Assembly (NCBI RefSeq): GCF_004341365.1
Contig: NZ_SLXH01000019.1
Span: 1 to 64,000 of the forward strand
Source: Simplicispira metamorpha
GTDB lineage: Bacteria; Pseudomonadota; Gammaproteobacteria; Burkholderiales; Burkholderiaceae_C
Direction: 5' to 3'
DNA length: 64,000 nucleotides
In this document: in pieces, positions 27,558-37,527 of the stretch
Position numbering within the stretch: the first letter of the stretch is position 1
How the letters are laid out: each line of letters starts with the position of its first letter
Translations under genes and position numbers: made by a program
The notes under the pieces: generated by a model
The model's database searches: none
What the model was told of the DNA's origin: nothing
What the model saw: the letters and a program-made list of their open reading frames with translations, nothing else

Positions 27558-27638
27558 ACTGGCGGGCTTTTATGGAGCAGCCGCGCGCCTGTGTTATACA
27601 AAACACCACCCTATTCACAGCGTAACCACACCCGCAAT

Positions 27639-28331
27639 ATGAGCACGCAAAAAAATCCCGTCGTCTATGGCACCGAAGACCTGCTGGTCAGCCTGTGCAA
27701 CTCGGTCACCCGGGTGCTGAACGTGGCCACCCAGACCCAGATCAGCTACTCGGGCATGGTGCAGCGCATCAGCAAAACCTGTCTCAAGCCCGATATTGGC
27801 TGCTTCGTGCTGTTTGACGGCGGCTTTTCCGGGCTGGTGATCATCAACTTCTCGGGCGCGGCGGCCATGGAGATTTACGAGAGCTACATGCTCAACATGG
27901 GCATGTCCAAAAGCGACCTGGCCAGCTCGTTCACCTCGGACGAGGTCAGCAACGTGATGGGCGAGCTGATGAACCAGGTGGTGGGCGACTTCACCGGCAA
28001 GGTGCGCCGCGAGCTGCAAACGCACATCACGCAAAACCAGCCCAAGATGCTGGCGCTGAACAAGGAAGTGCTGCTCAGTGTGGATGCCAACCTGGACCAG
28101 CCCGAGGCGCGGCGCGTTACTTTCTACACCGGTGCCAACCATATCTTCTACCTGGAACTGGCTATTGACCGCACCGAGTTCATCAAGCTCTACGACTTCG
28201 AGCCCCAAGACGTGCCGAACCCCGATGAGCTGATCGCCCAGGCACACGGCGCCGGGGCGGCTGCACCCGCCCCCGCAGCCGCACAGCCCCTGAGTGAGAC
28301 CGACGAGCTGCTCAAGTCGCTGGGGATGTGA
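27639..28331 (+). CDS. DUF3334 (CheX-like) family protein
   Basis: A 230-residue protein resembling DUF3334, a CheX/CheC-like fold. Suggestive segments are DLLVSLCNSVTRVLNVAT, FVLFDGGFSGLVIINFSG, and SDEVSNVMGELMNQVVGDF, which resembles the ExxN dephosphorylation helix of CheX/CheC. The tail is Ala/Pro-rich, ending SETDELLKSLGM. Members are thought to act in chemotaxis or surface-attachment signalling by CheY-P dephosphorylation, but the function here is unproven. A GTG at 27591 is an alternative start. Its end overlaps the convergent aminotransferase gene by 20 nt. Confidence 0.75.
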   Translation: MSTQKNPVVYGTEDLLVSLCNSVTRVLNVATQTQISYSGMVQRISKTCLKPDIGCFVLFDGGFSGLVIINFSGAAAMEIYESYMLNMGMSKSDLASSFTSDEVSNVMGELMNQVVGDFTGKVRRELQTHITQNQPKMLALNKEVLLSVDANLDQPEARRVTFYTGANHIFYLELAIDRTEFIKLYDFEPQDVPNPDELIAQAHGAGAAAPAPAAAQPLSETDELLKSLGM

Positions 28332-29550
28332 TGCGGCCCCTGCGGGCGTGTTCGCCGTGCGCTGGCAGTGCGGTGGGGGCGTTCAGCAGGCGCGCCACAC
28401 GCGCCACGATGTCGTCGATTTGAGCCCCATCGCAGATGAGCGGTGGCAGCAAGCGGATGGTGGTGTCCCGCGTCACCGTGATGAGCAGGCGCTGTTGCGC
28501 CAGCGCACGCCCGAGCAGCGCTTTGGCGTCTGATTCCAGTTCGATGCCTACCATCAGGCCCAGGCCCCGGATGGCCACGACGCGCGGGTGGTCGCGCAGC
28601 GCATGTTGCAAGCCAGCCAGCAGCCGGTGGCCCAGCTGGGCAGCGCGCTCGGGGATGTTGTCGCGTTCCATCACGTCCACCACCGTGCAACCGATCCGGC
28701 AAGCCAGCGGATTGCCGCCGAAGGTGCAGCCGTGGTGGCCGGGGGAGAACAGTTGTGCCGCCTGGCCCCGTGCCAGGCAGGCGCCTATCGGAAAGCCATT
28801 GCCCAGCGCTTTGGCCAGGGTGATGACATCGGGCGCAATGCCCGCGTGCTGGTAGCCAAACCAGGTGCCGGTGCGGCCCATGCCGGTTTGCACTTCATCG
28901 ACCATCAGCAGCCAGCCTTGCTCGTCGCACAGGGCCCGCAGCGCGCGCAGGTACTCGGGGCTGGCAGGGCGCACACCGCCTTCGCCTTGCACCGGCTCGA
29001 CCAGCACGGCCACGATGCCGGGCACCTGTGCCGCAGCCTGGCGCACTGCGCCGATGTCGTTGTAGGGCACGCGCACAAAGCCCGGCATCAAGGGCTCGAA
29101 CCCGCGGTGCGCTGCCGGGTTGCCGGTGGCCGCCAGCGTCGCGATGGTGCGGCCATGAAAGCTGTTGTCCATCACCAGCACCTGCGGCTGGACCACCTGT
29201 TTGCGCTGGCCGTGCAGGCGCGCCAGCTTGAGCGCTGTCTCGTTGGCCTCGGCCCCCGAGTTGCAGAAGAACGCACGCTGCATGCCCGACAGCCCGCACA
29301 GTCGCTCTCCCAGGCGCTCTTGCCAGTCGATCTGAAACAGGTTGGAGGTATGCAGCAGCAGCCCCGCCTGCTCGGTAATGGCGGCGGTGATCTCGGGGTG
29401 CGCATGGCCCAGGCTGGTCACGGCAACGCCCGCGATGGCGTCCAGGTATTCGGTGCCTTGTGTATCCCACAGGCGGGCACCGCTGCCGCGACAGAAAGAC
29501 ACGGGCTGGCGGGCATAGGCCTGCATCAAATGTGAAGTGGTGTTTGGCAT
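28312..29550 (-). CDS. argD: Acetylornithine aminotransferase-type class III PLP enzyme
   Basis: A 412-residue class III aminotransferase. AFFCNSGAEANETALKLAR (cofactor pocket), MDNSFHGRTIATLAATGN, LVEPVQGEGGV, MVDEVQTGMGRTGTWFGYQ and ITLAKALGNGFPIGAC (PLP-binding lysine) are all present, matching ArgD. Its usual reaction converts N-acetylglutamate semialdehyde to N-acetylornithine; related enzymes handle succinylornithine or other omega-amino substrates. It is the last gene of the BenE-YggS operon, 10 nt after yggS, which is unusual for a biosynthetic argD and raises the chance of a different substrate. Its final 20 nt overlap the convergent DUF3334 gene. Confidence 0.87.
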   Translation of the reverse strand: MPNTTSHLMQAYARQPVSFCRGSGARLWDTQGTEYLDAIAGVAVTSLGHAHPEITAAITEQAGLLLHTSNLFQIDWQERLGERLCGLSGMQRAFFCNSGAEANETALKLARLHGQRKQVVQPQVLVMDNSFHGRTIATLAATGNPAAHRGFEPLMPGFVRVPYNDIGAVRQAAAQVPGIVAVLVEPVQGEGGVRPASPEYLRALRALCDEQGWLLMVDEVQTGMGRTGTWFGYQHAGIAPDVITLAKALGNGFPIGACLARGQAAQLFSPGHHGCTFGGNPLACRIGCTVVDVMERDNIPERAAQLGHRLLAGLQHALRDHPRVVAIRGLGLMVGIELESDAKALLGRALAQQRLLITVTRDTTIRLLPPLICDGAQIDDIVARVARLLNAPTALPAHGEHARRGRITSPAT

Positions 29551-29560
29551 GGAGGTGTTC

Positions 29561-30397
29561 TCAATTCTGGTGTGCTGGTTCTGCTGGTTCGTTGGGCCAG
29601 TAATGGCTGTCTGGCAAGGCGCGCGCGCCAAAAATGGCCTGGCCGACGCGCACCACGGTGGCGCCTTCTTCAATGGCGATCTCAAAGTCGCCCGACATGC
29701 CCATGGACAGCCCATCCAGGCACAGCCCTGCCGGGGCGCTGGCGCGAAGCTGGTCGCGCAGTGTGCGCAGCCCGATAAAGCATTGGCGCACCCGCGCTGT
29801 CTCGGGCGACAGCAGCGCCAGCGTCATCAGCCCGCGCACGCGCAAGGCGGGAAAGGCGGGCAAGGCCTGCAAAAAAGCCGCTACGTCCTGTGGTGGCAGG
29901 CCGTATTTGCTGGCCTCGCCGGAGGTGTTGACCTGCACGAACACGTCCAGCACACGCCCCTGTGCGCGCAAGTGCTGGTCCAGCACCTGGGCCAGGCGCA
30001 AGCTGTCCAGCGCCTGAAATTCGGTGGCAAAACGCGCCACCAGCTTGGCCTTGTTGGTTTGCAGGTGGCCGATGACCGACCAGCGCACATCTGCCAGATC
30101 GGCCATCGCTTGCCATTTGCGGTGGGCTTCCTGCACCTTGTTTTCTCCCCACTGGCGGCAGCCCGCTGCGTAGGAGAGGCGAATGCGTGCTTCGTCCATG
30201 GTTTTGCTCACCGGCAGCAGGCGCACGCTGGCGGGGTCGCGCCCCACGCGCTGGCAGGCCGCAGTGATGCGCGCCTGCACAGCGGCCAGGTTGCGCTGCA
30301 AGTCCTCCAGCGTGCTGGCCTGGGGGTAGTGGCTGCGCCCGATGTGCGAACCGGGCGCTGTCCCGGTGGCATCGGCGTCGGAGGTGGATGGCGTCAT
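29561..30397 (-). CDS. yggS: YggS/PLPBP pyridoxal-phosphate homeostasis protein
   Basis: A 278-residue PLP-binding alanine-racemase-fold protein without racemase activity. LLPVSKTMDEARIR contains the PLP lysine, and CRQWGENKVQEAHRKW, WSVIGHLQTNKAK, VQVNTSGEASKYGL, LMTLALLSPE and LSMGMSGDFEIAIEEGATVVRVGQAIFG are the classic PROSC signatures. It buffers PLP and protects against B6 imbalance. The N-terminus is about 25 residues longer than in E. coli. The start at 30397 overlaps the benE stop as ATGA. Its position beside a MocR gene and a PLP-dependent aminotransferase suggests a B6-linked operon. Confidence 0.93.
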   Translation of the reverse strand: MTPSTSDADATGTAPGSHIGRSHYPQASTLEDLQRNLAAVQARITAACQRVGRDPASVRLLPVSKTMDEARIRLSYAAGCRQWGENKVQEAHRKWQAMADLADVRWSVIGHLQTNKAKLVARFATEFQALDSLRLAQVLDQHLRAQGRVLDVFVQVNTSGEASKYGLPPQDVAAFLQALPAFPALRVRGLMTLALLSPETARVRQCFIGLRTLRDQLRASAPAGLCLDGLSMGMSGDFEIAIEEGATVVRVGQAIFGARALPDSHYWPNEPAEPAHQN

Positions 30398-31635
30398 TTG
30401 GCCACCGCCTTGCTGCCAAGGGGGTCGGGTGCAGAGCGCGATGGGTTGCGTGACCACTGGCCATGGAGCACCGCGTAAGCCACCAGCCCGATCACCAGCC
30501 CCCAGAACGCCCCGCCAATGCCCCACAGCTTGATGTTGGCGGCAGCGGCCAGGAAAGTGATCAGCCCTGCTTCACGGGTTCGGGGGTCGGCCATTGCGCT
30601 GGCCAGGCTGGTGCCAATGGTGCCCAGCAAGGCCAGCCCTGCCAGCGTGGTGATGAAGCTGGCCGGAAACGCCATGAAAACCGCCGCCAACGTGACCCCG
30701 AACACCCCCACGAGGATGTAGAAAACACCCGCCGCAATGCCTGCCACCCAGCGCTTGGAGGGGTCTTCGTGCGCTTCCTTGCCCGTACAGATGGCCGCCG
30801 TGATGGCCGCGATGTTGAAGGCGTGCGAGCCAAACGGTGCCATCAGCAACGAGCCCAGCCCGGTGAGGGTGACGATGGGGTTGGCGCTGGTCTTGAACCC
30901 GTCGTTGCGCAGCACCAGCATGCCGGGCATGTACTGGCCCGTCAGCGTGATCAGAAACAGCGGCAGCGCCACGCTCAGCAAGGCATTGAGCGAGAACACC
31001 GGCAGGGTGAGCACGGGCGCAGCCAACTGCCATTGCAGGCCCGACAGGTCCACGCGCTCTTGTGCCAGCAGGAGCGCCAGCCCCAGCACCAGAATGCCCA
31101 CCACGGCGTAGCGTGCGCAAAAGCGCTTGAGCACGACATAGGCCACGATCAGCACGCTGCTCAACAGCGGATCGATGCTCACGCTGCCAAAGGCGCCAAT
31201 GCCGAACTGCAACAAGATGCCCGCCAGCAGCCCGGCCGCCACGCCTGGCGGAATCAGGCGGATAAGTTTCTCGAAATAGCCTGACAAGCCCAGCAGCACA
31301 AAGGCCGCGCCAGAGACCAGGTAGGCACCCACCGCCTCGGCATACGGCGTGGTGGCCAGCGCCGTGACCAGGAACGCTGCCGCAGGCGTGGACCAGGCCG
31401 TGATGATCGGCTCGCGGGCCATGGCACTGAGCAATAGGCCCGTCACCCCCACGCCAATCGAAATTGACCAGACCCACGAGGCCGTCAGCTCCGGGCTCAG
31501 GCCCGCCACCTTGGCCGCCTGAAAGACCAGAATGAAGGTGCCGCCGTAGTTGACGATGACCGAAATCAAGCCCGCCACCACCGGGTGGGCAAGATCGCGC
31601 AGTTGAATGGGTGGTGGTGTGCTGGAAAACGACAT
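30394..31635 (-). CDS. BenE/YdcO-family membrane transporter
   Basis: A 413-residue polytopic permease with about twelve hydrophobic segments. VVAGLISVIVNYGGTFILVFQAA, AWSTPAAAFLVTA, GVAAGLLAGILLQFGIGAF and APFGSHAFNIAAITAAICTGKEAHEDP are diagnostic of BenE (benzoate:H+ symporter) proteins. No benzoate-degradation gene is nearby. The operon instead contains a PLP-homeostasis protein and a PLP enzyme under a divergent MocR gene, so transport of a B6 vitamer or of a regulator ligand is an alternative. The start at 31635 is preferred over the ATG at 31677; GGGAG lies upstream. Confidence 0.88.
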   Translation of the reverse strand: MSFSSTPPPIQLRDLAHPVVAGLISVIVNYGGTFILVFQAAKVAGLSPELTASWVWSISIGVGVTGLLLSAMAREPIITAWSTPAAAFLVTALATTPYAEAVGAYLVSGAAFVLLGLSGYFEKLIRLIPPGVAAGLLAGILLQFGIGAFGSVSIDPLLSSVLIVAYVVLKRFCARYAVVGILVLGLALLLAQERVDLSGLQWQLAAPVLTLPVFSLNALLSVALPLFLITLTGQYMPGMLVLRNDGFKTSANPIVTLTGLGSLLMAPFGSHAFNIAAITAAICTGKEAHEDPSKRWVAGIAAGVFYILVGVFGVTLAAVFMAFPASFITTLAGLALLGTIGTSLASAMADPRTREAGLITFLAAAANIKLWGIGGAFWGLVIGLVAYAVLHGQWSRNPSRSAPDPLGSKAVAK

Positions 31636-31697
31636 GGCCTGGGGGCTCCCTCTGAAGTGCGAAATCGCGGGTATCAAAAGTGGTTTTATACCGTTGC

Positions 31698-31744
31698 AGT
31701 GGACTGTTCTTCTATGTCAATTTTGCAATGGTGTACAGACCACT
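31698..31744. promoter_or_regulatory. Candidate MocR operator pair 1
   Basis: AGTGGACTGTTC at 31698-31709 faces GTACAGACCACT at 31733-31744, whose reverse complement AGTGGTCTGTAC matches 10 of 12 bases. This is an inverted pair spanning 47 bp in the divergent promoter region. A weaker AGTGGTTTTATA occurs just upstream. Confidence 0.5.
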
Positions 31745-31807
31745 TTGCTCAAAACCAGAGGCTGGCGCTGCCCATGAATACGGTGCAAAGTCCAGGTGCG
31801 GCCATAA

Positions 31808-31855
31808 AATGGACTGCTGTTATTGGCCAATTTGCAGAAAAAAAGCAGACCACAT
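31808..31855. promoter_or_regulatory. Candidate MocR operator pair 2
   Basis: AATGGACTGCTG at 31808-31819 faces AGCAGACCACAT, which ends in the MocR gene's start codon. The shared half-site is TGG(A/T)CTGCT. The pair spans about the same distance as pair 1 and lies 110 bp from it, so autorepression is plausible. Confidence 0.48.
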
Positions 31856-33350
31856 GAAAAGCGTTTTTGAGCTGGAGACACTGAGAATGCGGCTCAGCGA
31901 TGCCGACCTGCAGCCCCTGGACTTGCACCAGCGCATTCAGCGTGCCCTGCGCGCCCTGATACTGGATGGGGCCCTGGGGCCGGGTGTCAAACTGCCTGCC
32001 ACGCGCGCGCTGGCCCAGTCGCTGGGTGTGGCCCGCGACACCGTGGAGAACGCCTATGTGCAGCTCCAGCGCGATGGTTTCGTCGTCCGGCGCAAAGGCT
32101 CTGGCAGCTACGTGCCCGAGACCATGGGCACCGAGCTGCGCGGCGCCGAGCGGCGGCGCCTGAGGTTTCGCTCTCCCGCCCGCAGCACCCCGCAGGCCGG
32201 TGCTGGTCTGAGCCGGCGGGGCCGGATGGTGCTTGACAGCGGCGGGGTGGCCGATCAACAGGTGATCCAGGCCTTTGCCACGGGCCTGCCCGAAACCCGC
32301 ACCTTTCCCGTACAGGTTTGGGAGCGTTTGCAGCGCCAGGTGTTGAAAGACCACCGCACCCAGGTGCTGCTGCATGGCGACCCGCAAGGCGCCAGGCCCT
32401 TGCGCGAGGCCATTGCCGCCTACCTCAACCTGGAGCGGGGCGCCCAGGTGTCGGCGGAACAGATTCTGGTGCTCAGCAGCACCCGGCAGGCCTTGTTTCT
32501 GTGTGCGCAGTTGCTGGTGGACGCGGGCAAACCAATTTTGTTGGAGAACCCCGGCTACTTCGGCGCCAAAAAAGCATTTGAATCCGCCGAGGCCAAGGTC
32601 GTGCCGGTGGACGTGGATGCCCAAGGCATACGCACTGACCTGTTGCGCGCCGACCGCAGTGGCGCCAGTTGCGTCTATGTGACACCTTCGCACCAATACC
32701 CCACGGGGGCCACCTTGTCGCTGGAGCGGCGGCTCGACTTGATTCACTGGGCGGCTGACAACGGCAAGTGGATCCTCGAAGACGACTACGACAGCGAGTT
32801 CCACTACGACGGTCTGCCTACCGCGTGTGTGCAAGGCCTGGACAAGTACCAAAGAACGCTCTACATCGGCACCTTCGGCAAAACGCTCTACCCTGGGCTG
32901 CGCATGGGGTACATGGCGCTTCCGCTGGAGCTGGTGCGCGCATTCACCCATGCGCGCAGCATCCTGGATGGCCATACGCCCCAGGCCGTGCAGTTGACCT
33001 TGGCACGTTTCATGGAAGACGGGCACTACAACGCCCATGTCAGGGCCATGCGCAAGCTTTATGCGGGCCGGCGCGATTACATGCTCGATGCCATCGAGCG
33101 GCATCTGGGCGCCGTGGTGGCGCCGCTGCGGCCAGCGGGCGGTATGCAGATACCGTGCTTTCTGAAGCCAGGCTGGTCTGAGGAGGCCACCATTCGGCAG
33201 GCGGCGGCGGCGGGCGTGCAGTTGCCCGGCTTGAGCCGGCTCTATCTGGGGCCGCAGAAGCAGTATGGCTGGTTGCTGGGCTATGCCTGCCTGACGGAGC
33301 AGGCCATTGAAACGGCCATGCTGCGCCTGGCCCAGGCCCTCAGACAGTAG
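31854..33350 (+). CDS. MocR/GabR/PdxR-family PLP-dependent transcription regulator
   Basis: A 498-residue chimeric regulator. The N-terminal GntR winged helix (HQRIQRALRALILDGAL, LPATRALAQSLGVARDTVENAY) is followed by an aminotransferase-like fold with VTPSHQYPTGATLS, ILEDDYDSEFHY and IGTFGKTLYPGLRMGY, whose lysine would bind PLP. Such proteins sense PLP or a PLP-amino acid adduct and control vitamin B6, GABA or taurine genes. It is divergently transcribed from benE-yggs-argD, which are its probable targets. The start at 31854 fits the start of the GntR domain; longer in-frame extensions lie in the operator region. Confidence 0.93.
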   Translation: MKSVFELETLRMRLSDADLQPLDLHQRIQRALRALILDGALGPGVKLPATRALAQSLGVARDTVENAYVQLQRDGFVVRRKGSGSYVPETMGTELRGAERRRLRFRSPARSTPQAGAGLSRRGRMVLDSGGVADQQVIQAFATGLPETRTFPVQVWERLQRQVLKDHRTQVLLHGDPQGARPLREAIAAYLNLERGAQVSAEQILVLSSTRQALFLCAQLLVDAGKPILLENPGYFGAKKAFESAEAKVVPVDVDAQGIRTDLLRADRSGASCVYVTPSHQYPTGATLSLERRLDLIHWAADNGKWILEDDYDSEFHYDGLPTACVQGLDKYQRTLYIGTFGKTLYPGLRMGYMALPLELVRAFTHARSILDGHTPQAVQLTLARFMEDGHYNAHVRAMRKLYAGRRDYMLDAIERHLGAVVAPLRPAGGMQIPCFLKPGWSEEATIRQAAAAGVQLPGLSRLYLGPQKQYGWLLGYACLTEQAIETAMLRLAQALRQ

Positions 33351-33424: not shown

Positions 33425-34462
33425 TTACTGCTTGCGCGCAGCGATGGACTTTTCAGCCAGGTCCACCAGGTCGGCGCCGATCTGGCCCTTCCACTTGTCC
33501 ACCACGGGGCGGGTGGCCTTGACGAAGGCGTCGCGCTCGGCGGCGGTGAGCTGGGTCACGGTCACGCCGTGGCTGGCAATTTCCTTGAGCAGCGGCTTGT
33601 CGGCCTCAACCACGCCTTTGCGGGCGATGGCGATCTGCTCTTTGCCCGCGTCGATGGCTGCTTGCTTGACGATTTCGCGGTCGGCGGGTGTCCAGCTGTT
33701 CCAGATGTCCTTGTTGACCACGAACACCAGCGGGTCGTTCATGTAGCCCCACAGCGTCAGGTGCTTTTGCGCCACGGTGTAGAGCTTGGCGGCCATGAAC
33801 ACCGACAGCGGGTTTTCCTGCCCATCGACGGCGCCGCTGGCCATGGCGGGCTGGGCATCGGCCCAGCTCATTTGCGTGGGGTTGGCGCCCAGGGCGGTGA
33901 ACGTGTCGAGGAACAGCGGCGAGCCGACCACGCGGATCTTCATGCCCTTGAGGTCAGCGGGGCTCTTGATGGGCTTTTTGGAGTTGGAGATTTCGCGGTA
34001 GCCGTTCTCGCCCCAGGCCAGCGGCATGACACCGGCTTTGTCCAGCGTCTGGAACAGGCGCTTGCCCACTTCGCCCTGCGTGAGCGCATCGGTGGCGGCG
34101 TAGTCGGGCATCAAAAACGGCAGCGAGAACAGGTTCAGCTGCTTCACCTGGGGCGACCAGTTGATGGTCGAGCCAATGGCCATGTCGATCACGCCCTGGC
34201 GCAGCGCGGAGAACTCGCGCGTCTGGTCGCCCTGGATCAGCGAGACGCCGGGGTAGAGCTTGATGTTGATGCGGCCCTGGGTGCGTTCGCGCACCTTGTT
34301 GGCCCACAGCTCACCGCCCTTGCCCCAGGGAAAGGCCGTGCCCAGCACCAGCGACATGCGGTACTCGCTCTTGTACGCGGTCTGCGCGATGGCCGCAGGC
34401 GCGGTAAAGGCCAGGGCGGCCGCAGCGGCCACGGCGGTGGTCAGGAAAGTACGCAGTTTCAT
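33425..34462 (-). CDS. dctP: TRAP transporter substrate-binding protein (DctP family)
   Basis: A 345-residue periplasmic binding protein with a clear signal peptide (MKLRTFLTTAVAAAAALAFT, cleavage near AIAQ). Typical DctP segments follow: FPWGKGGELWANKVRERTQG, LRQGVIDMAIGST, ISNSKKPIKSPADLKGMKIRVV (with the substrate-carboxylate arginine), GAVDGQENP and KHLTLWGYMNDPLVFVVNK. It delivers a dicarboxylate, 2-oxo acid or other organic anion to the DctQM membrane pair. The order of transcription is dctQ-dctM-dctP, with a repeat copy in the dctM-dctP gap that could affect relative expression. The substrate cannot be read from sequence. Confidence 0.93.
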   Translation of the reverse strand: MKLRTFLTTAVAAAAALAFTAPAAIAQTAYKSEYRMSLVLGTAFPWGKGGELWANKVRERTQGRINIKLYPGVSLIQGDQTREFSALRQGVIDMAIGSTINWSPQVKQLNLFSLPFLMPDYAATDALTQGEVGKRLFQTLDKAGVMPLAWGENGYREISNSKKPIKSPADLKGMKIRVVGSPLFLDTFTALGANPTQMSWADAQPAMASGAVDGQENPLSVFMAAKLYTVAQKHLTLWGYMNDPLVFVVNKDIWNSWTPADREIVKQAAIDAGKEQIAIARKGVVEADKPLLKEIASHGVTVTQLTAAERDAFVKATRPVVDKWKGQIGADLVDLAEKSIAARKQ

Positions 34463-34479
34463 GGGTTCTCCTTGCTATG

Positions 34480-34534
34480 AAAAAAGTAGCTAGTAGCGCT
34501 TATCTGGCGGGCCTTGAAGCCCATTTTTATTCAA
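34480..34534 (-). repeat. Dispersed palindromic repeat, copy 7
   Basis: Plus-strand sequence AAAAAAGTAGCTAGTAGCGC then GGCGGGCCTTGAAGCCC and TTTTTATTCAATA. It lies between dctM and dctP, so it is transcribed within the operon. Confidence 0.8.
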
Positions 34535-34539
34535 TATTC

Positions 34540-35838
34540 TCAATAACCGAGACGGGCAGGCAGCCACAGCGCCAGGGGCGGGAAGGCAATCACCAGCACC
34601 ATCACCAGGAACATGGCCAGCAGCATGGGCCCGACCCAGCGCACGGTGGACTCCATGCGCACCCCGGCAATGCGGCACGACACCATCAGGTTCACGGCCA
34701 GCGGCGGTGTGAACTGGCCCAGCGCCACCTTGAGCGTAAGGATGACGCCAAACCACACCGGGTCCCAGCGGTAGTGCTCCATGATGGGCAGCAGCAGCGG
34801 CACGAAGATCAAAAAGATGGAGATGCCGTCCAAAAACATGCCCACCGTGACCAGCAGCAAGATGAGCAGCGCCAGCACGCCGTATTCGCCCAGCCCCGAG
34901 TTGACGATGGCTTTGGCCACCGGGTCGATCACGCCCAGCGTGGACAGCGAGAAGGCAAAAATCCCGGCCAGCGACACCACAATCAAAATCACCGCCGACA
35001 GCTCGCCCGACTCGCGCAGGATGGTGAACAAATCGCGCACGGCAATGGTGCGGTGGATGACCATGCCCACAAACAGGCCGTAGAACACGGCGACCACGGC
35101 AGCCTCGGTGGGCGTGAACCAGCCCGCGCGCATGCCGCCCAGAATCAGCACCGGCGCGGCCAGGCCCCAGGCCGCTTCGCGCAGGCTGCGCCAGAACGGC
35201 GGGCGCGGCATGGACGCTTCGAGCGCCCCCATCTTGTGCTTGCGCGCCATCCACACGGCCGGAACGATGAGCGCAATGCCCGCCAGAATGCCCGGAATCA
35301 TCCCGGCGGCAAACAGCGCTGGCACCGAGGCGCCTGGCACCAGCACCGAGTAAATGATGAACGCCACCGAGGGCGGAATCAGGATGTCGGTGGCGGCGGC
35401 GGCGCCCACCACGCTGGCCGAGAAACTGCCCGGATACCCCGCGCGGTGCATGGCGGCAATCATCACGCCGCCCACGGCAGCGGCGTTGGCCGGCCCCGAG
35501 CCCGAGATGCCGCCCAAAAACATGGCCACGGCAATGGCCACCAGCGGCAACATGCCGGGGCCACGCCCGACGATGGCGACGGCAAAGTTCACCAGCCGCA
35601 GCGCCACGCCCGAGCGGTCAAAAATCGAGCCCACCAGCACAAACATCGGAATGGCCAGCAGCGGGTATTTGCCCAGACCGGCGTAAAAGTTCTGCGGCAC
35701 GGCCAGCAGGCCGAACCACTGCGCATCCTGGTTGGCCAGCGCAATCGCGGCAGCACCCGCCAGACCCAGCGCCGCGCCAATGGGCACGCCCACCAGCATC
35801 ATCAGCAAAAAGGCAACAAACAAGAGCGTAGCGATCAT
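34540..35838 (-). CDS. dctM: TRAP transporter large permease (DctM family)
   Basis: A 432-residue inner-membrane protein with about twelve hydrophobic helices, the ion-coupled translocation subunit of a TRAP system. Its core signatures include LLFVAFLLMMLVGVPIGAAL, AMFLGGISGSGPANAAAVG, TDILIPPSVAFIIYSV, GWFTPTEAAVVAVFYGL and LILLLVTVGMFLDGISIFLI. The start at 35838 overlaps the dctQ stop by 4 bases; the open frame continues upstream without family similarity. It forms the membrane complex with DctQ and takes substrate from DctP. Confidence 0.95.
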   Translation of the reverse strand: MIATLLFVAFLLMMLVGVPIGAALGLAGAAAIALANQDAQWFGLLAVPQNFYAGLGKYPLLAIPMFVLVGSIFDRSGVALRLVNFAVAIVGRGPGMLPLVAIAVAMFLGGISGSGPANAAAVGGVMIAAMHRAGYPGSFSASVVGAAAATDILIPPSVAFIIYSVLVPGASVPALFAAGMIPGILAGIALIVPAVWMARKHKMGALEASMPRPPFWRSLREAAWGLAAPVLILGGMRAGWFTPTEAAVVAVFYGLFVGMVIHRTIAVRDLFTILRESGELSAVILIVVSLAGIFAFSLSTLGVIDPVAKAIVNSGLGEYGVLALLILLLVTVGMFLDGISIFLIFVPLLLPIMEHYRWDPVWFGVILTLKVALGQFTPPLAVNLMVSCRIAGVRMESTVRWVGPMLLAMFLVMVLVIAFPPLALWLPARLGY

Positions 35839-36386
35839 GGCTGGCGCTCCAGAAAGTCCACGTCGGACTGTTTGCCGCGCCGGATGAACAGGCCCAGGGC
35901 GCGCCAGGTGATCAGTGCCGACAGCACCGGCAGCCACACCGAGTACCACCACTGCGGCACGCCAATGCCGGGCGAGGTTTCTTCAAAACGGTAGTCGTCC
36001 CAGACCACGCGCACACTGAGCACGGCAATGGTGGCAAACAGCAGCGCCACCATCAGCGCGCCAAAACGGGCCAGCGCACGCCGGCGTGCGCCCGAGCCGC
36101 TGTCAGAAAAGAACTCGATGCGGATGTGGCGGTCGCGCGCCACAGCCGCCGAGCCCGCCACCAGCGCCAGCACGATCATCAGGAACACCGAGATTTCTTC
36201 TGTCCAGGCAAGGGAGCTGTCGGTGAAGTAGCGTGCCAGCACGTTGGCAAAGGTGATCAAGGCCAGCGCTGCCATCACGAGCACGGTGAGCCAGTCTTCA
36301 ATGCGCAGCGAGCGCGGCTCATCGCTGGCGGGCAGGGTGGGTTCGGGGTTGGCAGCGCAAGGCCCGGGTTCTGGGGAGGGGGGCAT
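35835..36386 (-). CDS. dctQ: TRAP transporter small permease (DctQ family)
   Basis: A 183-residue protein with four hydrophobic segments and the DctQ-type stretch ITFANVLARYFTDSSLAWTEEISVFLMIVLALVAGSA, followed by AVARDRHIRIEFF. The proline-rich N-terminal ~25 residues are probably cytoplasmic. It is the first gene of the TRAP operon and overlaps dctM as ATGA. The divergent LysR gene lies 190 nt away across a perfect inverted repeat. Confidence 0.9.
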   Translation of the reverse strand: MPPSPEPGPCAANPEPTLPASDEPRSLRIEDWLTVLVMAALALITFANVLARYFTDSSLAWTEEISVFLMIVLALVAGSAAVARDRHIRIEFFSDSGSGARRRALARFGALMVALLFATIAVLSVRVVWDDYRFEETSPGIGVPQWWYSVWLPVLSALITWRALGLFIRRGKQSDVDFLERQP

Positions 36387-36451
36387 GGGAGAGAAGCGTC
36401 AGGGGCAGGGCGACAGGAGGGTGCCAAAGCGGCAGGCCGTTTGCTACGCGC

Positions 36452-36466
36452 TGGCGTGGTACGCCA
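36452..36466. promoter_or_regulatory. Candidate LysR-box in divergent dctQ/lysR region
   Basis: The perfect inverted repeat TGGCGT-GGT-ACGCCA lies between the TRAP operon and the LysR gene. Dyads of this size are typical of LysR-type regulator sites; binding is inferred. Confidence 0.5.
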
Positions 36467-36576
36467 TGGGGTCAGCAGGGTTGCGCTGTGAACGCGGGCG
36501 CCATTATGCGTTCTGCTCTGGCAGGCGTTGCGCGCCGCAGCCCGGGCGGCCCCTTGCCAGCGCCGATAATGCACGC

Positions 36577-37527
36577 ATGGAAACCAAGTGGCTTGAGGAC
36601 TTTGTCAGTCTGGCGGAAACGCGCAGTTTTAGCCGTTCGGCGCAGCTGCGCCACGTCACGCAACCGGCGTTCTCGCGCCGCATCCAGGCCCTGGAGGCCT
36701 GGGCGGGCACCGATCTGGTGGACCGCAGCTCGTACCCCACGCGCCTGACGCCAGCGGGCAAAACGCTGTACGACCAGGCGCTGGAGACTTTGCAGGCGCT
36801 GCAAAACACCCGCGCCACGCTGCGCGCCCACGGCACGTCCAGCCAGGACATGATCGAGTTTGCCGTGCCGCACACGCTGGCCTTCACCTTCTTTCCGGCC
36901 TGGGTGTCGAGCCTGCGCGAGCAGTTCGGCCCTTTCAAGAGCCGGTTGATTGCGCTCAACGTGCATGACGCGGTGATGCGCCTGGTCGAAGGCAGTTGCG
37001 ACCTGCTCATCACCTACCACCACGCCTCGCAGCCCTTTCAGCTCGATGCCAACCGCTACGAGATGGTGGTGCTGGGCCAGGAAGTGCTGGCGCCCTACGC
37101 CAAGGCCGATGCCCAGGGCCAGCCCCTGTACCCGCTGCCCGGGCGTGCCGGGCAGCCGCTGCCCTACCTGGGCTATGCGCCCGGGGCCTACCTGGGCCGC
37201 GTCACCGAGCTGATCCTCAAGCAGTCGAGCACGCCCATCCACCTCGACCGCGTTTATGAAACCGACATGGCCGAGGGCCTCAAGGCGATGGCGCTGGAAG
37301 GCCACGGCATTGCCTTTCTGCCCTACAGCGCCGTCAAAAAAGAGCTGCGCGCACGTACCTTGACCCGCGCCGCCCCGCCCGAACTGCACGGCCTGGAGAT
37401 GGCCATGGATGTGCGCGTGTACCGCGAAAAACCCACCGGCAAAGAGCCTGCCAAAGGCACGGCCCAGGCCATGTGGACGTTTTTGCAAGAGCACAGCGTC
37501 GCCGGTGCCAGCGCCTTGCTGCCGTGA
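36577..37527 (+). CDS. LysR-family transcription regulator
   Basis: A 316-residue LysR-type regulator. The N-terminal helix-turn-helix reads WLEDFVSLAETRSFSRSAQL then VTQPAFSRRIQALEAW, and is followed by an effector-binding domain of two alpha/beta subdomains (FAVPHTLAFTFFPAW, LVEGSCDLLITYHHASQPFQ, YETDMAEGLKAMALEGHGIAFLP). It is divergent from dctQMP and is the likely controller of that transporter. The start at 36577 is the only one matching the family; upstream codons run through the intergenic region. The effector is unknown, though the transported organic acid is the natural guess. Confidence 0.92.
   Translation: METKWLEDFVSLAETRSFSRSAQLRHVTQPAFSRRIQALEAWAGTDLVDRSSYPTRLTPAGKTLYDQALETLQALQNTRATLRAHGTSSQDMIEFAVPHTLAFTFFPAWVSSLREQFGPFKSRLIALNVHDAVMRLVEGSCDLLITYHHASQPFQLDANRYEMVVLGQEVLAPYAKADAQGQPLYPLPGRAGQPLPYLGYAPGAYLGRVTELILKQSSTPIHLDRVYETDMAEGLKAMALEGHGIAFLPYSAVKKELRARTLTRAAPPELHGLEMAMDVRVYREKPTGKEPAKGTAQAMWTFLQEHSVAGASALLP

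Follow-up and report, generated by a model that had tools for sequence, protein, structure and literature searches.

A PdxR-Type MocR Regulator Divergent From a BenE-YggS-Aminotransferase Operon in Simplicispira metamorpha: A Candidate Unit for Vitamin B6 Supply and Backup

Introduction

Regulons of the MocR-type regulator PdxR, predicted in 2016, include ArgD-family aminotransferases, GlyA, COG325 proteins, a putative BenE-family pyridoxine transporter, a GuaA-family amidotransferase and RimI/RimL acetyltransferases, and two direct boxes with one inverted box are described as the commonest MocR operator layout (Suvorova and Rodionov 2016, PMC5320631). Here we analyze a locus within a 64,000-nucleotide stretch of Simplicispira metamorpha DNA (contig NZ_SLXH01000019.1, positions 1 to 64,000; hereafter, the window), in which a PdxR-type MocR gene lies divergent from genes for a BenE-family permease, a YggS protein and an ArgD-type aminotransferase. 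The cluster shares with the predicted regulons its regulator type, several members and the operator layout. In our estimate, there is an even chance that this MocR controls a small operon for the supply and backup of pyridoxal 5'-phosphate (PLP).

Two other MocR systems invite comparison. In Salmonella, the MocR protein PtsJ represses pdxK with PLP as its effector and thus likewise controls B6 salvage (PMC12172467). On three enterobacterial plasmids (L181, L182, L186), an amidotransferase-PtsJ pair faces YggS and a kinase, annotated as PfkB-type in L181 and L182 and seen as kinase-like matches after YggS in L186; unlike the window, these plasmids have no BenE in the stretches shown, and their annotated PtsJ is only 24% identical to the window MocR. 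In the characterized PdxR-pdxST switches, the regulator is also divergent; without PLP it activates its target while repressing its own gene (PMC5320631), the mode that we propose here; their target is PLP synthesis, whereas the window operon, which lacks pdxST, would serve import and backup.

In most organisms, E. coli among them, the genes for B6 transporters are described as yet to be identified (PMC10202323). A BenE subclade accompanied by a PdxR-type MocR, often by a PLP carrier and sometimes by pyridoxal kinase, is a concrete and easily tested candidate. The central idea of the initial annotation, a BenE permease importing a B6 vitamer under MocR control, is already in print as a prediction, because PMC5320631 lists BenE in PdxR regulons; the main text of that paper contains none of the terms 'trpB', 'tryptophan synthase', 'phosphoserine' and 'plasmid', though its supplementary tables may list this regulog. 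In the open-licence literature, we recognized no other match to this cluster and found no report of experimental B6 transport by BenE. New here are the operator evidence, the subclade-specific MocR linkage and the theme of replacement enzymes with its plasmid forms.

Conserved Linkage of MocR to a BenE Subclade

We drew the subclade line at ≥65% BenE identity after seeing the identities, which lie at 67–86% or at 54% and less. Above the line stand 29 other loci, of which 11 were found via YggS (their YggS counts are biased), 9 with BenE as bait, and 9 are plasmid loci from the 21 plasmid records above 60%; the pBYT1-1 and pBYT5-1 loci are the same cluster and not independent. A MocR gene adjoins BenE (<2 kb) in all 29 loci, divergently in 28; the MocR match is partial in L067 (30% identity) and reaches 34% in L124 and L125. 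By contrast, among 20 loci with distant BenE (28–49%, picked from match lists), MocR is adjacent in one and within 7 kb in one more. At 51–53% BenE identity, MocR is next door in one locus of three. The grouping recurs at other loci and is thus not due to chance. Of 399 genomes of the order, 8 encode subclade BenE; samples drawn at the level of the phylum and of the class gave 4 of 398 and 2 of 369, respectively, and each count includes the S. metamorpha genome. Given this patchiness, the subclade behaves as an accessory unit.

The family name, together with a TIGR00843 score over cut-off, would suit an ordinary benzoate permease that happens to stand beside an unrelated MocR. We consider this very improbable because MocR adjoins BenE in all 29 subclade loci and in just 1 of 20 distant ones, and because no benzoate gene is present among the five neighbors scanned (DctP, DctM, DctQ, LysR and DUF3334; farther genes were not scanned), a set for which an earlier remark that benzoate genes are missing nearby holds. 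Conserved residues of the permease are changed as well, as detailed below.

Operators and a Predicted Promoter in the Divergent Gap

BenE and MocR are separated by 218 bp (31636–31853). Comparison of related gaps yielded the pattern TGGnCTG-N10-nCA-N16-CAGACCA, with one box facing one way and two boxes the other. The S. metamorpha genome (3.78 Mb, 98.6% complete) holds two exact copies, both in the BenE/MocR gap (Table 1). With up to one mismatch, the pattern finds 19 distinct sites across 112 loci (1.52 Mb), all inside MocR clusters, against none for the reversed control. Some of these sites precede other genes of the clusters: they lie in the MocR/YggS gap of L012, in the MocR/GlyA gaps of L063 and L075, and in the SerC/MocR (L120:9690) and GlyA/AurF (L120:12766) gaps of L120. 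Additional MocR/GlyA sites occur in L191 and L192, and in the genome of L120, an exact site (L200:2368) also precedes a small gene that follows the kinase. Control of the operon by MocR, as proposed at the outset, is well supported by the two exact operators confined to the gap and by conservation of the operator in relatives.

A wider regulon in the S. metamorpha genome was considered and set aside: the one-mismatch places C3:29105, C8:50369 and C11:25912 and the two-mismatch ones were deemed chance, as the backwards control also matches (3+3).

In 10 of 26 rows, among them that of window operator 1, a TATAAA-like −10 element (≤1 mismatch) points toward BenE and stands exactly 9 bp from the box. 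Another 11 rows have TTGAC facing MocR, and all of these lack the BenE −10. These counts take 26 of 29 aligned rows, with three six-mismatch rows left out and L005, also with six, kept.

By analogy with apo-PdxR, we infer that MocR activates BenE and represses its own gene. As free PLP falls, apo-MocR would bind the three-box operator ahead of the BenE promoter, a weak one in which a TATAAA −10 is accompanied by operator boxes in the place of the −35; it would switch on BenE, YggS and the aminotransferase and block its own gene, and PLP, the presumed signal as in the PdxR systems, would reverse both effects. Import of an unphosphorylated B6 vitamer would then fall to BenE, buffering or delivery of PLP to the second YggS, and backup of a PLP enzyme to the second ArgD-type aminotransferase.

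Table 1. Genes and predicted regulatory elements of the locus, in window coordinates
Feature	Position	Strand	Basis
MocR/GntR regulator, PdxR type, 498 amino acids	31854..33350	+	PF00392 + PF00155 (GntR + Aminotran_1_2); NCBIfam PdxR NF052282
BenE-family permease, 413 amino acids, proposed B6-vitamer importer	30394..31635	-	PF03594 426 bits; TIGR00843 390 bits
Second YggS/PLP homeostasis protein (COG0325), 278 amino acids	29561..30397	-	TIGR00044 190 bits, cut-off 106
Second ArgD-type class III aminotransferase, 412 amino acids	28312..29550	-	TIGR00707 460 bits, cut-off 410
Operator 1, TGGACTG-N10-TCA-N16-CAGACCA	31700..31742	+	exact pattern match
Operator 2, ends 1 bp before MocR start codon	31810..31852	+	exact pattern match
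Predicted -10 TATAAA toward BenE, spaced 9 bp from operator 1	31685..31690	-	hexamer and spacing shared with some relatives

Gene Identities and the Nature of the Regulator

Profile scans of nine window proteins against Pfam and NCBIfam/TIGR place all four genes of the locus over curated family cut-offs, and the arrangement of a MocR divergent from a BenE-YggS-ArgD-like operon is as originally described. Start codons were picked by eye (ATG at 31635 for BenE, 30397 for YggS, 29550 for the aminotransferase and 31854 for MocR); the YggS start overlaps the BenE stop as ATGA, and the aminotransferase starts 10 bases past the YggS stop. Base composition reveals no foreign island around the operon (G+C content of the window 0.61–0.67 per kb).

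The window MocR scores 409 bits against the NCBIfam PdxR equivalog, over its cut-off of 320; the rhizopine MocR model gives 413 bits raw, far below its own cut-off of 650, and the GabR model 284, below 600. Related MocRs exceed the PdxR cut-off in 9 cases out of 10, with L193 below it at 242. The PLP lysine of the window MocR lies within TFGKTL, and its alignment column is kept in all 31 MocR rows that cover the site, window included, as are the corresponding lysines in 24 of 24 YggS and 12 of 12 aminotransferase rows. We relied on alignment here; a simple lysine-motif screen caught only 6 of 33 MocR, 14 of 24 YggS and 7 of 12 aminotransferase rows.

These scores bear on whether the operon might instead serve the use of an amine or amino acid, with BenE importing an amino or aromatic compound for the aminotransferase, MocR sensing it in the way that GabR senses GABA, and YggS supplying no more than PLP. 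GabR-type relatives of MocR are described as sensing amino compounds, the name BenE refers to an aromatic acid, and an aminotransferase is present in 10 of the 29 related loci. However, it is the PdxR and not the GabR model that the window MocR satisfies, no dehydrogenase or other catabolic partner appears among the five neighbors scanned, and the aminotransferase is missing from 5 of the 9 loci found with BenE as bait, as far as the stretches reach. We thus find this reading quite unlikely, and the amino-compound import that the initial annotation had offered as a second option loses ground to B6 supply.

Second Copies and the Permease Substrate

Both proteins encoded after BenE have a further copy elsewhere in this genome. 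The other YggS (C23:8730) has a better family score, and the window YggS is 38% identical to it as compared with 53–78% to the YggS of eleven related loci. The other ArgD (C7:77650) is the best-scoring one, at 470 bits against 460 for the window copy, so the latter is probably not the main ArgD enzyme; the window aminotransferase is 53% identical to the C7 protein, 73–79% to 9 of the 10 cluster proteins compared and 49% to that of L067. A second BenE, on C8, is 30% identical to the window permease.

The substrate of the window BenE is likely a B6 vitamer, as judged from its genomic company. A pyridoxal kinase is encoded in the cluster in 8 of the 29 loci (L061, L066, L069, L075, L122, pBYT1-1, pKAZ5 and pBYT5-1), directly after BenE in L061, L066, L069 and L075, and this linkage favors a B6 vitamer. 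L069 comes from a record labeled Bacillus subtilis SK6B4, its cluster looks alphaproteobacterial, and the assembly is probably mislabeled or contaminated. In E. coli, phosphorylation drives the uptake of unphosphorylated B6 vitamers (PMC10202323). The subclade itself is distinctive: at 33 BenE positions, at least 28 of 29 subclade sequences agree on a residue that no more than 2 of 18 distant sequences keep. These positions include N29, Y235 (N in 13 of 18 distant sequences) and N367 (G in 18 of 18), and the pattern suggests a substrate that differs from that of distant BenE. An AlphaFold2 model of BenE from a 12-sequence alignment (mean predicted local distance difference test score 53.9) is too poor for a fold search, and phmmer found no solved relative at E≤1.

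Several observations weigh against B6 import and its control by MocR. The chief argument is the missing kinase: no pyridoxal kinase over the cut-off was found in the S. metamorpha genome, where the sole match scores 44.8 (cut-off 144.5). Judged by its motifs, the reading frame of this match looks like ThiD, which might substitute for the missing enzyme. Kinases over the cut-off occur in 5 of 10 genomes with subclade BenE as compared with 5 of 16 others, so there is no clear enrichment. Both PdxJ and PdxH are encoded, and PLP is therefore probably made de novo. Many of the 33 subclade positions are conservative swaps that could reflect plain ancestry. YggS lies within 9 kb in only 4 of the 9 BenE-bait loci, and two plasmid loci, L187 and L190, have MocR and BenE only. 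As for the operators, their presence in such gaps is partly by construction, because the pattern was derived from those gaps; they are absent at ≤2 mismatches from 7 of 28 divergent gaps, and the −10 toward BenE is missing in 16 of 26 rows. With up to three mismatches, the window has 6 sites against a shuffle mean of 3.37, and 18 of 100 shuffles reach 6; the operator argument therefore rests on exact matches and conservation. The proposal of B6 import by the permease thus holds up in part: kinase linkage and the 2016 prediction speak for it, while the lack of a kinase over cut-off here, de novo PLP synthesis and the kinase distribution among genomes speak against.

Variable Gene Content of Related Clusters

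Related loci show the window operon to be a reduced form of a larger cluster, part of whose occurrences are on plasmids. Within 9 kb, as far as the stretches reach, the 29 loci encode YggS (21), GlyA (14), aminotransferase (10), kinase (8), amidotransferase (8), TrpB (5), a major facilitator superfamily (MFS) protein (5), AurF (2) and SerC (1); in the 9 BenE-bait loci, the numbers are 4 for YggS, aminotransferase and GlyA alike, 2 for TrpB and 1 each for SerC and kinase. In G235, the cluster runs GlyA-TrpA-TrpB-aminotransferase-YggS-BenE-SerC; MocR and another GlyA gene come next, with genes for an AurF-like oxygenase, a reductase and the amidotransferase, and a kinase lies just beyond the 9-kb range.

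AurF-like diiron oxygenase genes near a YggS/amidotransferase cluster were also noted at L120:13204-15212, L121:12191-13150, L007:7987 and L022:7872; the L120 protein belongs to Pfam PF11583 and is accompanied by a ferredoxin-type reductase, and such an enzyme could modify an amine.

Among plasmids, pBYT1-1 (typed conjugative) encodes an MFS protein and MocR divergent from BenE-YggS-GNAT-amidotransferase-PdxK-aminotransferase-TrpB-TrpA-GlyA-LysR. The pBYT5-1 cluster is the same, and that of pKAZ5 is similar, with no annotated GNAT and with the amidotransferase located by a tblastn match. Among 72,556 records, the only other near-complete plasmid relatives of the pKAZ5 cluster DNA are pBYT1-1 and pBYT5-1 (78% covered at 80.5%), and it has no match in the E. 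coli genomes searched; the full form of the cluster is therefore rare. By mobility type, the nine subclade plasmids examined comprise three conjugative, two mobilizable and four non-mobilizable ones; several are megaplasmids of 0.8–2 Mb. In the literature seen, strain BYT-5 appears in one paper, for another plasmid.

Beyond the subclade, Agrobacterium pAtl-11c encodes MocR, amidotransferase, GlyA, YggS and PdxY, with no BenE in the stretch shown. YggS stands amid several PLP enzymes on plasmids of Prescottella and Rhodococcus, and without such neighbors on those of Paracoccus, Rhizobium and Tsukamurella. The Prescottella stretch (L185:1-10308) has YggS, MocR-like genes and annotated TrpB-like, IlvA, GabT and SerC proteins, the last without a family in the Pfam scan; the Rhodococcus stretch (L193:4340-12537) has YggS, MocR-like genes, a class III aminotransferase, GlyA and a BenE at 46% identity.

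Possible Replacement Enzymes

The PLP proteins of these clusters look like working enzymes, since their PLP lysines are intact: by motif, and with related plasmids counted separately, the catalytic lysine is present in 18 of 18 GlyA, 5 of 5 TrpB and 1 of 1 SerC. Four cluster TrpBs, from two Burkholderiales, a Pseudomonas plasmid and pKAZ5, are 82–89% identical to one another. Both genomes checked, G235 and G038, also encode another full TrpB, to which the cluster copy is 69% identical, less than to the TrpBs of other clusters; TrpB at least, as these identities indicate, travels as part of a set. Cluster TrpBs are 73–78% identical to the main TrpBs of the window genome and of G133, and so their source may be that family. 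The variable membership would fit a stock of spare parts better than a pathway.

Further divergent TrpBs were noticed in the window genome (L197, C1:84201) and in G133 (L199, C46:19916, about 20 kb from BenE); they are 74% identical to each other and 52–55% to the other TrpBs compared.

A parallel exists in zinc homeostasis, where Zur controls zinc-sparing paralogues and a cofactor-sensing regulator thereby turns on replacement copies of core enzymes. Unlike in zinc sparing, the cofactor here is organic, and the cluster copies retain the PLP lysine and so give no sign of sparing in the strict sense. Taken as a whole, it is a tentative possibility that the operon is a minimal mobile 'PLP crisis kit'. 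Such a kit would combine MocR-run B6 import (BenE, kinase), PLP carriage (YggS) and a separate, co-traveling lineage of replacement PLP enzymes (variably ArgD-type, GlyA, TrpB/TrpA and SerC), and would be triggered by PLP shortage or B6 antimetabolites. In Alpha-, Beta- and Gammaproteobacteria, it would occupy chromosomes and some conjugative plasmids, and two plasmids of actinobacteria are arranged similarly. If so, PLP-dependent enzymes would exist in bacteria as transferable backup sets, a sign of unrecognized natural PLP antagonists and of a new kind of cofactor-stress response.

A rival reading, which we find rather doubtful, sees the clusters as modules of tolerance to PLP antagonists, with cofactor and replacement enzymes set against inhibitors of PLP enzymes and the window locus as the minimal form; the antagonists could be B6 analogues such as 4'-deoxypyridoxine (4dPN) or PLP-trapping amines and hydrazines. 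It draws on clusters that join TrpB, GlyA, SerC, ArgD-type aminotransferase and YggS with kinase, GNAT, MFS or amidotransferase genes, on the second-copy status of TrpB and on the intact catalytic lysines; three such clusters lie on plasmids of conjugative type. In E. coli, 4dPN toxicity is higher without yggS and largely PdxK-dependent, and 4'-deoxypyridoxine 5'-phosphate (4dPNP) inhibits GlyA in vitro (PMC10202323). Yet TrpB is present in only 5 and SerC in 1 of the 29 loci, kinase, MFS and GNAT genes are all absent from the window locus, and second copies could also serve plain PLP shortage. D-cycloserine is unlikely as the antagonist, because no alanine racemase was noticed among annotated or scanned genes, although no profile search for one was made.

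Neighboring Genes

Downstream of the operon, a convergent DUF3334/CheX-like gene (27591–28331, plus strand) and the aminotransferase gene share 20 bases at their ends; we saw no link to PLP. On the other side, MocR adjoins genes for a TRAP transporter (DctP, DctM, DctQ) with a divergent LysR regulator (33425–37527), whose best match, under cut-off, is HypT; this is probably a separate unit.

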